A DNA stretch of 64,000 bases, taken from Nocardioides alkalitolerans DSM 16699 (GTDB lineage: Bacteria; Actinomycetota; Actinomycetes; Propionibacteriales; Nocardioidaceae). Positions within the stretch are counted from its first letter, which is position 1. Every line of letters begins with the position of its first letter. The stretch spans positions 310,001-374,000 of the forward strand of contig NZ_AUFN01000011.1 in NCBI RefSeq assembly GCF_000426525.1. The letters run 5' to 3'. The translations under genes and the position numbers were made by a program. Shown here piece by piece: positions 831 to 59,255 of the stretch. A model generated the notes under the pieces. That model saw nothing but the letters and a program-made list of their open reading frames with translations. It was not told where the DNA came from and made no database searches.

Positions 831-950
831 TGCGAGCGCAGCCGGCTCGATGGGTGAGGGGCGAGTGCAGCGCGTCCGGTGGGTGAGGAGCGAGCGCAGC
901 ATGTCTCGGTGGGTGAGGAGCGAGCGCAGCGAGCGTCTCGAAGCCACGCG
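831..950. repeat. Short direct repeats, ~30-bp period (REP-like)
   Basis: Three near-identical copies of GGTGGGTGAGGAGCGAGCGC start near 849, 878 and 908, the last running on into GCGAGCGTCTCGAAGCC. A weaker copy precedes them. The 757-1018 interval otherwise holds nothing recognisable. The same motif in the opposite orientation, GTTTCGAGACGCTCGCTGGC, lies beyond the DUF222 gene at 2893-2960, so the gene is bracketed by one repeat family in inverted orientation. Confidence 0.75.
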
Positions 951-1018: not shown

Positions 1019-2473
1019 TCAAGCGGGCAGAGGGATCGTGCCGTGGGGGTCGACGAGGTACTGCTGGTCGTGGGGGCTCGTCCAGACGAAGGATCCGTCG
1101 GGCAGGCGGCGGTAGCGCCACCGTCTCTCGGGTCCTGCACCGGTCAGCGATGGGTGGGTCTTCACGCGGTGATGTCGCCGGCAGAGCGGGGCGAGGTTGG
1201 TCGTGGAGGTCTGACCCGGTGGCCCGCCGTCATCTGCTCGGACGTACTCATCGACGTGGTCGAGGTCGCAACCCCGCGCGGGCCTCGTGCAGTGCGGGAA
1301 CACGCAGGCGGGTCGGGTGAGGCGGACGCGTTCGGCGATCCGGTCGGGGATCTCGTAGGCGTCGACCGCGATCTGGTCGCGCAGGTCGATCACCGGCTTC
1401 ACGACGACCTGGGTGGAGGTTGCGCGGCACCATTCGCGGACCTGCTCGGCGAGCACGAAGCTGCGGGTCTTCTCGACCCGTGCGAGATCGACGCCGCCGC
1501 AGGCGTTGGGGTCCAGGTCGGTGAGCGCGGTCTCGGAGAGGTGGACGTGGAGCACGACCTGACGCGCCTTCGATCGCGTCGCGGCCGGCGGGGTGTCGCT
1601 GCCGGTCTGGTTGCTGGCCTCGCCCGTCGTGGTCCGCACAGCGTCGGCGTTGTCGCAGCCGCTGAGGTCGAGCGTGGTCTGACGCCGCGCGATCTCACCG
1701 ACCGCGGATGATCGCCGTGCGTCGAGGGAGTCCAGCGACCCCGCGAGCGCGAGGTCAGCGGCCACGCGGGACACGGCGTTCTCGAGGTCGAGGGCGTCGG
1801 CGAGGTCGAGGGTGCCGGACACCGGCACCACACCCCGACCCGGATCCACCTGGGCGTCGAAGTCGAAGTCGATGTCGAACCGTCGGGTGGCGTCGGAGTC
1901 GGCGCGGTCGAGCTCGGCCTTTTCGGGGTCGAACCGGGCGACCGCCTCGGCGACCAGCTTCTGCGCGGTCACCAGTCCGGTCTTGTGGGCCACGGGTGCG
2001 AGGTGACGGTCGACGAACTCCGCGCCCTCGACCGTGAGCTGGGTCGTCTCCTGCGCGATCTTCCGAGCCCTCCACACCGGCAACGCGCCGACCATGACCC
2101 GCGCCCAGAGCCTGGGGAGCCGGTGCCGCAGCTCGACCGCCTCACCGACCAGCCGGCGACCGGAGTCGGTCGACAGACCGAGGGCGGCGGCGATCTCCAC
2201 GACGCAGAACTCCGACACCAACGGAGCGCCCGGCCCGCCGAGCTCCCCGAACACGTCCGCGCCCGGGAGCAGGTGCGCATCGGAGCGGAGCAGCCCAAAC
2301 GGGCCGTACTGGTCGGCGACCACGCCGCCCTCGGTGTGCGCGTCGGCCCAGTCCGCGACCGCCACGAGGACCTCGACCTCCGCCGCCCGCTGACGGGCCA
2401 GAGCCGCCCGGGCACCGTCGAGCAGCACGGCCGGGAAGGCAGTGCTGCCGAGGGTGGCGGTGGGCGGGCTCAT
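1019..2473 (-). CDS. DUF222 / HNH endonuclease (13E12 repeat family)
   Basis: 484 residues. The N-terminal two thirds are the helical DUF222 region of the mycobacterial 13E12 repeat family; the C-terminus (about residues 390-438) is an HNH nuclease domain with CVFPHC, DLDHVDEY and NLAPLCRRHHRVK, so the metal-binding and catalytic histidines are intact. These genes occur in many copies in actinomycetes and are thought to be mobile or selfish, though their role is unproven. The ATG at 2473 lies six bases after a TAGAAT -10 element (2480-2485 on the minus strand), so the transcript is probably leaderless. A near-consensus SOS box lies just upstream, pointing to DNA-damage control. Related repeats flank it on both sides. 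Confidence 0.9.
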   Translation of the reverse strand: MSPPTATLGSTAFPAVLLDGARAALARQRAAEVEVLVAVADWADAHTEGGVVADQYGPFGLLRSDAHLLPGADVFGELGGPGAPLVSEFCVVEIAAALGLSTDSGRRLVGEAVELRHRLPRLWARVMVGALPVWRARKIAQETTQLTVEGAEFVDRHLAPVAHKTGLVTAQKLVAEAVARFDPEKAELDRADSDATRRFDIDFDFDAQVDPGRGVVPVSGTLDLADALDLENAVSRVAADLALAGSLDSLDARRSSAVGEIARRQTTLDLSGCDNADAVRTTTGEASNQTGSDTPPAATRSKARQVVLHVHLSETALTDLDPNACGGVDLARVEKTRSFVLAEQVREWCRATSTQVVVKPVIDLRDQIAVDAYEIPDRIAERVRLTRPACVFPHCTRPARGCDLDHVDEYVRADDGGPPGQTSTTNLAPLCRRHHRVKTHPSLTGAGPERRWRYRRLPDGSFVWTSPHDQQYLVDPHGTIPLPA

Positions 2474-2486
2474 GTCCTGATTCTAT

Positions 2487-2502
2487 TCGATCACGCGTTC
2501 GA
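2487..2502 (-). promoter_or_regulatory. Probable LexA (SOS) box of the DUF222/HNH gene
   Basis: Read on the minus strand the site is TCGAACGCGTGATCGA. It differs at one base from the actinobacterial SOS consensus TCGAAC-N4-GTTCGA. It sits directly upstream of the TAGAAT -10 hexamer of the leaderless DUF222 gene, where LexA binding would block RNA polymerase. Mycobacterial 13E12 genes are known LexA targets, which supports the reading. Confidence 0.65.
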
Positions 2503-2575
2503 TCGCCAGGCACTGGAGGTGATCTGGGGATAACTGTTTGACCAGGTCAAGCGGCCCTTAGCTGCCGAGAGGGGC

Positions 2576-2990
2576 CAGTGGTTTCGAGACGGGCCTAGCG
2601 GCCCTCCTCAACCACCGGGGCACGAGCCTCGCGGCCCTCCTCAACCACCGCGGGCGCGGGCTTGGCGACCCTCCTCCACCACCGTGGGCGCGAGCCTCGC
2701 GGCCCTCCTCAACCACCGCGGGCGCGGGCTTGGCGACCCTCCTCCACCACCGTGGGCGCGAGCCTCGCGGCCCTCCTCAACCACCGCGGGCGCGGGCTTG
2801 GCGACCCTCCTCCACCACCGTGGGCGCGAGCCTCGCGGCCCTCCTCAACCACCGCGGGCGCGGGCTTGGCGACCCTCCTCCACCACCGTGGCCGTGGTTT
2901 CGAGACGCTCGCTGGCGCTCGCTCCTCAACCACCGGGAGACGCTCGCTGGCGGTCGCTCCTCCACCACCGGGGGCGCTCGCTCCACCACC
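2576..2990. repeat. Repeat block: four 68-bp tandem units plus REP-like copies
   Basis: Units of 68 bp begin at about 2641, 2709, 2777 and 2845 with near-perfect identity. Each unit is a dimer of diverged 34-bp halves, GGCCCTCCTCAACCACCG... and GACCCTCCTCCACCACCG.... At both ends (2579-2625 and 2893-2975) are copies of GTTTCGAGACG...CTCCTCAACCACCG, from which the tandem unit appears to have been amplified. Open frames through the block are repeats of low-complexity peptide and are not credible genes. This explains most of the 705-bp gap 2474-3178; the remainder is unremarkable GC-rich DNA. Confidence 0.85.
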
Positions 2991-42889: not shown

Positions 42890-43375
42890 ATGACTTTCAC
42901 CGTCGGCGAAACGGTCGTCTATCCCAATCACGGGGCCGCAGTCATCGAGGACATCGAGATGCGGAAGATCAAGGGAGAGGACCGGGAGTACCTGGTCCTG
43001 AGGATCGTGGCACAGCAGGACCTGGTCGTGAGGGTGCCGGCGTGCAACCTCGACCTCGTCGGGGTCCGCGACGTGGTCGACAAGGAGGGTCTCGACCGTG
43101 TGTTCGACGTCCTCCGTGCCGAGCAGGTCGAGGAGCCGACCAACTGGTCGCGTCGCTACAAGGCCAACCTCGAGAAGCTGCACAGCGGTGACGTCATGAA
43201 GGTGGCCGAGGTCGTGCGCGACCTCTGGCGCCGGGAGCGTGACCGCGGTCTGTCGGCCGGCGAGAAGCGGATGCTCGCGAAGGCGCGGCAGATCCTCGTC
43301 TCCGAGCTCGCGCTCGCCGAGAGCACCAACGAGGACAAGGCGGAGTCCATCCTCGACGAGGTGCTGGCCTCCTGA
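42890..43375 (+). CDS. carD: RNA polymerase-binding transcription regulator CarD
   Basis: 161 residues, ATG at 42890 with AAGGGGA upstream. The N-terminal RNAP-interacting Tudor-like domain ([39 protein letters not shown]) and the C-terminal DNA-binding helices with the essential Trp ([40 protein letters not shown]) are intact. CarD stabilises open promoter complexes and is essential in mycobacteria. It is usually followed by ispD and ispF on the same strand; here ispD is inverted. A strong hairpin ends the gene. Confidence 0.97.
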
Positions 43376-58815: not shown

Positions 58816-58850
58816 CCGGTTGTCGGTGGCGACACCTAGCGTCCGGCGTC

Positions 58851-59255
58851 ATGGCGGAGTGTCGAGGATGCGGCGGTGCCCTCACCGGCCGGCACCAGAA
58901 GAGCTTCTGCAGCAACGGGTGCCAACGGCAGGCCGACCGTCGCCTGAGGACGGAGGCCTGGCTGGCGTCCGGTGTTGCCTTCATCGACACGAATCCGCGG
59001 CACTACGTGCGGCTCCACCTGATGGAGGAGCAGGCCGGCAGGTGCGCTCTGTGTCGCGGTGAGGCGACGTGGAACGGCCGTCCCCTCACCCTGGTGCTCG
59101 ACCACGTCGACGGGGACGCGAACCACAACGCGCGTGGCAACCTGCGGCTCGTGTGCCCGAACTGCGACAGCCAGCTGCCCACCTACAAGGCCCGCAACCG
59201 CGGGCGCGGTCGTGCCTGGCGGCGCGAGCGGTACGCCCGGGGCGATTCCTACTGA
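58851..59255 (+). CDS. Small HNH endonuclease with N-terminal zinc finger
   Basis: 134 residues, ATG at 58851, with TAGCGT at 58837-58842 as a -10, so the message may be leaderless. An N-terminal Cys4-type finger (CRGCGGALTGRHQKSFCSNG C) is followed by a compact HNH domain: CALCRGEATWNGRP, LVLDHVDGDANHNARGNLRL and VCPNCDSQLPTYKARNRG. The DH...N...N/H residues and Cys pairs are complete. Such small stand-alone HNH proteins are found on phages and islands and act as nicking or homing enzymes. It lies 36 bp after tRNA-Thr, a usual integration site, but I see no integrase. Confidence 0.9.
   Translation: MAECRGCGGALTGRHQKSFCSNGCQRQADRRLRTEAWLASGVAFIDTNPRHYVRLHLMEEQAGRCALCRGEATWNGRPLTLVLDHVDGDANHNARGNLRLVCPNCDSQLPTYKARNRGRGRAWRRERYARGDSY

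Follow-up and report, generated by a model that had tools for sequence, protein, structure and literature searches.

According to excerpts of PMC5005354 the LexA regulon of Mycobacterium tuberculosis includes the 13E12 members Rv0515, Rv1702c, Rv3074 and Rv3776, and excerpts of PMC4181829 likewise place 13E12 HNH genes under LexA; the preliminary description of our locus was therefore right in calling the mycobacterial 13E12 genes LexA targets. The first of these papers, citing Davis 2002, also carries the idea of mobile elements which are active on damage. In the part of PMC8151990 that was available, five putative HNH endonucleases are induced by mitomycin C through RecA, the family being left unnamed there. 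A second damage switch is that of PafBC, a RecA-independent damage activator whose promoter motif resembles (PMC6789036, PMC8223512 and PMC11804915, excerpts) the RecA-NDp consensus tTGTCRgtg-8 nt-TannnT, quoted in an excerpt of PMC5656591. No paper containing both "PafBC" and "13E12" was found in the open-licence literature, nor, in those texts as far as they were available, any account of PafBC control of DUF222 genes, of an exchange of switches or of a nested hybrid promoter; supplementary regulon tables (e.g. for M. smegmatis PafBC) could list 13E12 genes. Within that literature, LexA control of 13E12 genes is known already and the PafBC wiring, the exchanges and the hybrid described below are apparently new.

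The window, that is, the whole 64-kb stretch of DNA that was analyzed (C3:310001-374000), is part of a genome of 4.85 Mb in 16 contigs, which was also scanned; its named relatives are mostly Nocardioides, which makes it a probable member of the Nocardioidaceae. Like the 13E12 (REP13E12) genes of M. tuberculosis, the window gene belongs to a multi-copy HNH family with LexA-regulon members. It differs from them in the location of its box, within the -35/-10 spacer and 29 nt 5' of the ATG, and in its GATCGA arm, in that sister copies have PafBC promoters, and in that the genes are framed by REP-like palindromes. The features are listed in Table 1.

Table 1. Features at and around the DUF222/HNH gene (window coordinates)
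Feature	Position	Strand	Remarks
DUF222/HNH nuclease gene	1019..2473	minus	484 aa, ATG at 2473
LexA (SOS) box TCGAACGCGTGATCGA	2487..2502	minus	in -35/-10 spacer; start 29 nt 5' of ATG
-10 hexamer TAGAAT	2480..2485	minus	same position in paralogues
-35 slot TGGCGA	2503..2508	minus	adjoins box directly; poor TTGACA match
TTATCCCCA, conserved, DnaA-box-like	2525..2533	minus	reads TTCTCCACA in other copies
REP-like palindrome GGTGGTTGAGGAG..CGTCTCGAAACCAC	2578..2616	minus	upstream of window gene
Second upstream REP-like palindrome	2894..2934	minus	beyond tandem-repeat stretch
Downstream REP-like palindrome	908..947	plus	inverted relative to upstream ones

The assignment of the gene to the DUF222/HNH type, made earlier from the sequence, is borne out by a match of its product to PF02720 (E 6.6e-6; 26.1 bits, gathering score 24.4) and by an HNH motif in the C-terminal part, CVFPHC..CDLDH..NLAPLCRRHH, which was read from the sequence. 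Residues H406, N426 and H435, together with C390, C395 and C431, are nearly invariant in 39 homologous proteins. The Pfam HNH model did not match the protein and no NCBIfam family was found for it. The predicted structure has a pLDDT of 83 for the full protein and of 89 for the first 200 residues modeled alone. Foldseek returned no match at E <=0.001 for the whole protein (PDB, viral models) or for the N-domain (PDB), a lack from which no new fold should be concluded. When the N-domain was aligned structurally, every one of the top 11 rows was a ParB, Noc, KorB or Spo0J structure (Z 4.0-6.0), with unrelated folds from 4.0 down. The N-terminal helical domain thus offers a weak ParB/KorB-like match that we treat as a lead, since a widespread arrangement of helices may be enough to give Z values as low as these; it would be akin to the DNA-binding domains of ParB, Noc and KorB in fold class, and is unlike them in its low Z and in lacking a Foldseek match. 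The C-terminal part aligns with the HNH domains of IscB and McrA (Z ~5), and McrA was also the best match (E 0.038) in a sequence search of solved structures.

The LexA box at the promoter can be read directly and departs from TCGAAC-N4-GTTCGA at one of 12 positions, as first reported. Along the minus strand, box (2502-2487), a single base (2486), TAGAAT (2485-2480), six bases and the ATG (2473-2471) follow one another; the hexamer and its distance from the start codon are thus as originally given, whereas the box, said to abut the -10 hexamer, is separated from it by one base. Because only 6 nt lie between the -10 hexamer and the ATG, the transcript is predicted to be leaderless. At the -35 slot, or within 1 base of it, TTGTAT or TTGAC-like letters can be seen by eye in some of the boxed relatives. 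In the window, LexA sites with <=3 mismatches number 62, against 29.5 expected from shuffles, so that a lone near-match says little; at <=1 mismatch there are two, the box at 2487-2502 and a site at 43092. The promoter has no RecA-NDp motif, the sole site in the window with <=1 mismatch being that at 58820.

The latter is an exact PafBC/RecA-NDp motif (58820-58842, plus strand), situated 8 nt 5' of the ATG of ORF 58851-59252. The 134-aa product shows a weak match, below the cut-off, to recombination endonuclease VII (PF02945, E 0.0015), and this ORF may encode another damage-induced nuclease.

Pfam identifies 18 DUF222 genes in the genome and the DUF222-type genes number 21 in all. A search upstream of these other copies, which the preliminary description had proposed as a check, showed a LexA box (<=2 mismatches) at 15/21, and in 13 of the 15 it starts exactly 29 nt 5' of the ATG; the absence of boxes elsewhere that would have spoken against that description was thus not observed. 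Eleven copies form a close family: compared with the window protein, nine of the other ten proteins show 87-93% identity and the tenth, which looks frameshifted, 66%; all 11 have the box start exactly 29 nt before the ATG. A box is also kept, at nearly the same spacing, by some diverged relatives. L049, a separate gene whose product is 44% identical to the window protein, carries TCGCACACGTGTTCGA 36 nt 5' of the ATG, and L285 is a second copy of this type with the same box. Scanning the genome for the composite of box and -10 hexamer gave 14 sites: the 11 of the close family, two at DUF222-like genes missed by Pfam (L050, 43% identical to the window protein, and L061, 41%), each with its box 29 nt before the ATG, and one 3-mismatch site at C1:787710. 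PF02720 did not match L050, L061 or L049 as whole proteins at E values up to 0.1, and these three were placed by alignment. Genome-wide there are 47 LexA sites with <=1 mismatch, compared with 4 for the pattern read backwards, and 13 of the 47 precede DUF222-type genes when coordinates are compared by hand. A chance match of a single motif was rejected: the recurrence at other genes rules it out, and the controls are against it.

The second arm of the box is GATCGA in ten of the 11 close copies and GAGCGA in the other, the consensus arm occurring in none, so that affinity may be moderate. This arm is not a private defect of the family, because the region upstream of lexA, which is encoded in the genome and preceded by a box of the same type, also holds a GATCGA-type half, TCGAACGTCTGATCGA. 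Full-consensus boxes are found at a dnaE2-like error-prone polymerase gene (cut by the locus end) and at imuA'. Another repressor might use the box, for instance an ArsR-family protein, whose motif is noted in excerpts of PMC8151990 to be similar to the mycobacterial SOS box. The company that the box keeps here, at lexA, the dnaE2-like gene and imuA', and its replacement in relatives by another damage switch (see below) make this very improbable. Between lexA and a divergent gene, L295 (C9:115092-115249) contains a cluster of LexA boxes, partly of the GATCGA type, and by eye a PafBC-like sequence.

The boxes of the 11 close copies go back to common descent and so cannot count as independent, and one might ask whether a functionless box was merely carried along with recently duplicated genes. 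Over the 55 pairs of these paralogues, however, the arms are 98.5% identical, compared with 57% for the 15 nt preceding the box. Third positions of the first 120 codons are 64% identical over the same pairs, a figure lowered by indels because the comparison was made without gaps. Two of the 11 copies (L055 and L052) look frameshifted and both have kept the box. Homologues that have other flanks, and 28-48% identity in the best segment, moreover carry boxes too, and boxes are in excess throughout the phylum sample described below. Arm conservation and the boxes of diverged homologues led us to reject hitchhiking, which is hardly credible; judged by these and by the phylum-wide excess, the box would appear to be functional.

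The six DUF222-type genes lacking a LexA box all possess TTGTCRGTG-N8-TANNNT, with 0 mismatches, 7 nt before an ATG; a gene with neither switch was not found among the 21. The preliminary description had spoken of the LexA box only; that part holds, and the PafBC/RecA-NDp promoters of these six copies had been missed, so that its overall reading is partly supported. Exact RecA-NDp sites number 14 in the genome, the remainder including sites preceding uvrB, sbcD and recA (75 nt 5' of the recA ORF); the six sister copies thus share the exact motif with these members of the PafBC regulon. PafC is encoded (PF19187, E 6.4e-40), adjoining a second WYL/WCX gene which is PafB-like. No PafBC site with <=1 mismatch was found at the LexA-boxed copies of the genome, and the two switches therefore look exclusive in it.

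The Nocardioidaceae set comprised 65 loci, several of them from one strain and hence not independent, and 4 of the 65 were cut off; among the 61 readable ones the PafBC motif (<=2 mismatches, start at the right distance) was found at 40, the LexA box at 12 and neither at 9. In three of these nine (L080, L089, L107) the usual place is taken by a motif with 3 mismatches. The closest relatives found of the window family, those of Nocardioides sp. ChNu-153, have PafBC motifs and no LexA boxes. A tree was built from 92 proteins, with 4 of the 11 copies of the window family and with the labels of L107, L080 and L089 set by hand. The LexA-boxed window clade is sister to ten PafBC genes (100% SH-aLRT). 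At least 7 changes are needed among the rows carrying a LexA or a PafBC label, and when each label is set against all other rows, branches with good support require no fewer than 5 changes for PafBC and 9 for LexA. The tree was quickly made and has long branches, so the exact number of changes is uncertain. It would seem from the pattern that damage control was kept while the regulator was replaced.

For the wider sample we used genomes that we take to be actinobacteria of one phylum. PF02720 was matched in 57 of 149 genomes, and 43 of the 57 were sampled for 108 genes, 29 taken automatically and 79 by hand among the matches listed; L272 repeats the gene of L178 and was left out of the count. 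Two genes had too little upstream DNA for the main test and three for a looser, start-anchored one. Within 450 nt upstream, at <=1 mismatch, a LexA box was present at 55/106, a PafBC motif at 20/106 and either at 64/106 (LexA only 44, PafBC only 9, both 11, neither 42), it being understood that genes of one genome are not independent. At least one wired gene occurs in 29/43 sampled genomes, and 14/43 have neither motif at 1 mismatch. In the controls the same motifs were found inside 0/108 genes and at 2/104 far-upstream regions; 100 permuted LexA palindromes gave a mean of 0.09 gene (maximum 1) and permuted PafBC motifs 0.06 (maximum 1). Of Mutator-type transposase genes drawn in like manner from the genomes (30 loci, 6 dropped for too little upstream DNA), 0/24 had either motif. 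Loosening LexA to <=2 mismatches brought either motif to 82/106, but the far-upstream control then rose to 16/104. Under the looser rule tied to the start codon 36/105 genes had neither motif; on average 0.6 genes were hit by each of 60 permuted LexA palindromes (maximum 3) and 0.92 by the permuted PafBC motifs, one of which reached 17/105. The motif-less genes may have misplaced starts, or the wiring may be absent from them.

These promoters fall into four architectures. The spacer type has the box between -35 and -10, as at the window gene. In the start type, of which TCGAACNN-ATG-TTCGA is an example, an in-frame start codon occupies box positions 9-11; this holds for 22 of 46 boxes (<=1 mismatch), and by eye the codon is ATG in all but two of the 22. 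Some of these genes also have a later in-frame start, and the start codon in the box is a candidate only. The third type has the PafBC motif alone. The fourth, represented by 16 genes at <=2 mismatches, has both motifs: counted from where the PafBC motif starts, the box begins after 22 nt in seven genes and after 10-11 nt in another seven, where it itself supplies the -10. The 10-11 nt register is also seen by eye, with one box mismatch, at a gene of plasmid pMYC1 of Mycobacterium adipatum. The exact nested hybrid turned up at 27 sites in a search of 393 genomes, spread over 11 genomes from 3 genera, and its reversed control at 0. The gene behind the hybrid is of the DUF222 type at 22/27 sites by tblastn, with a reference set that included hybrid-site proteins passing the HMM (self-matches left out), and at 1 more by HMM; two of the remaining sites are at contig ends and two are unconfirmed, giving DUF222 at 23/25 readable sites. 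A LexA box nested in a PafBC promoter thus appears to be tied to DUF222, and in this the genes are unlike the PafBC regulon at large.

What such a nuclease does is less clear. It might be a host repair enzyme, damage-induced and structure- or mismatch-specific, working with RecA, RuvABC and DnaE2/ImuAB, with many copies for dosage. The repeated exchange of switches on the tree fits a benefit to the cell, and a role of 13E12 HNH proteins in mismatch repair has been proposed in PMC4181829, where, in the excerpts available, it rests on co-expression and annotation. The widely varying copy number and the 92/149 genomes without a match are odd for a core repair enzyme, and we entertain this function only tentatively. 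A nuclease which degrades the chromosome and kills the damaged cell is an unlikely role. It has a precedent in the M. smegmatis HNH nuclease MSMEG_1275, which is reported to cut chromosomal DNA and to contribute to cell death (PMC9416677), yet neither "DUF" nor "13E12" occurs in the available text of that paper, where MSMEG_1275 was the only one of five overexpressed HNH genes to inhibit growth greatly, and a lethal gene in many copies would be hard to keep.

REP palindromes with RAYT proteins are a known case of a gene framed by inverted, multi-copy palindromes. The window gene likewise stands between palindromes that are inverted relative to each other (2578-2616 and 908-947) and multi-copy in the genome; its DUF222/HNH product differs from RAYT in that it is presumably not a Y1 transposase. 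Between the two upstream REP-like elements, window 2640-2890 is by eye a tandem repeat with a unit of palindrome-like pieces. The palindrome (GGTKGAGGAG..TCTCGAARCCAC) has 41 exact copies in the genome and 0 when reversed. By hand count 30 of the 41 lie <=1 kb from a DUF222-type gene, 26 of them at the 18 Pfam genes and 4 at L285; two more are found ~1.3 kb before L049, and nine are solitary. No DUF222 gene was detected by tblastn beside these nine (L286-L294), two of which are near contig ends; a 42-residue match at L290 is palindrome DNA also contained in an over-extended query. The upstream palindrome is present at 11/11 copies of the LexA family, ending in ten of them 102-104 nt before the ATG, and the inverted downstream one, 60-125 nt past the stop, at 7/11. 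It also precedes the PafBC copies (5/6 by script, the sixth by eye). No exact palindrome was found near L050 or L061. The gene and its palindromes look like a unit.

A further element, TTNTCCMCAG, is conserved ~50-60 nt before the ATG of DUF222 genes and includes window 2525-2533 on the minus strand. Its core TCCACAG occurs upstream of 13/60 Nocardioidaceae genes versus 0 in the control, and of 15/104 versus 2 in the phylum. The window version TTATCCCCA resembles a DnaA box; the core is enriched, and the full TTGTCCACA is rare (1/60 and 1/104, respectively).

A selfish element could account for these units if the DUF222 protein helped its own palindrome-framed unit to copy to new sites, damage control timing the copying to breaks and recombination. 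Eleven dispersed and mostly very similar copies, two of them apparently frameshifted, agree with this, as do the palindromes at both LexA and PafBC copies and the weak ParB/KorB-like fold. No target-site duplication or empty site was obtained for the window copy among 98 genus genomes; the gene to its left was matched in only 5 of the 98, its own genome included, the other four matches being weak. DUF222 matches were absent from 50,697 phage records (one query) and numbered 4 and 5 for two queries in plasmid records, so that spread by these vehicles is not supported. The absence of the downstream palindrome at 4/11 copies and of any near L050 and L061, as well as the nine solitary palindromes, also count against it. 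We regard the selfish reading as possible rather than probable. The earlier suggestion of an element that moves accordingly keeps the rank of a conjecture: the copies are dispersed and palindrome-framed, but no empty site and no phage record was obtained, and few plasmid records.

Very probably, then, the window gene encodes a 13E12-type DUF222/HNH nuclease which is repressed by LexA and transcribed without a leader after damage, in a family selected for damage control rather than for one regulator. The elements, their spacing, conservation and recurrence were observed, and the mode of action of LexA and PafBC is taken from published mycobacterial work; we infer the binding and regulation by both in this organism, and leaderlessness, from sequence. 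LexA would occupy the box in the -35/-10 spacer until RecA filaments on single-stranded DNA promote its self-cleavage, whereupon RNA polymerase would fire from TAGAAT, starting at or within 1-2 bases of the ATG. That the nuclease is made only on DNA damage, as the preliminary description implied, would be a prediction. Other copies and relatives would receive damage control from PafBC, which requires single-stranded DNA and RNA polymerase for its action at the -26 element, and some would use both, the LexA box being placed inside the PafBC promoter or immediately after it. Less certainly, the protein would bind DNA through its ParB-like HTH domain and cut or nick it with the HNH part during repair of damaged chromosomes.

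ParB/KorB-like proteins bind palindromes. With considerable doubt, one might suggest that DUF222 proteins are palindrome-binding HNH nucleases, with a ParB-like HTH, acting on their own REP-like palindromes; they would form a damage-licensed, REP-coupled actinobacterial family whose promoters were repeatedly rebuilt from either or both damage sensors since the protein is useful, or tolerable, only when single-stranded DNA is present.

With the hybrid promoter there is a compact natural example of one start site at which a repressor and an activator read a like signal. DUF222/13E12, a family of many copies with at least 18 matches in one sampled genome, is listed by Pfam as a domain of unknown function. 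The wiring of many of its members across the phylum to damage through two unrelated regulators suggests that cells want the nuclease made when DNA is damaged and, together with the swaps and the nested hybrids, turns this into a testable claim on repair or genome rearrangement.
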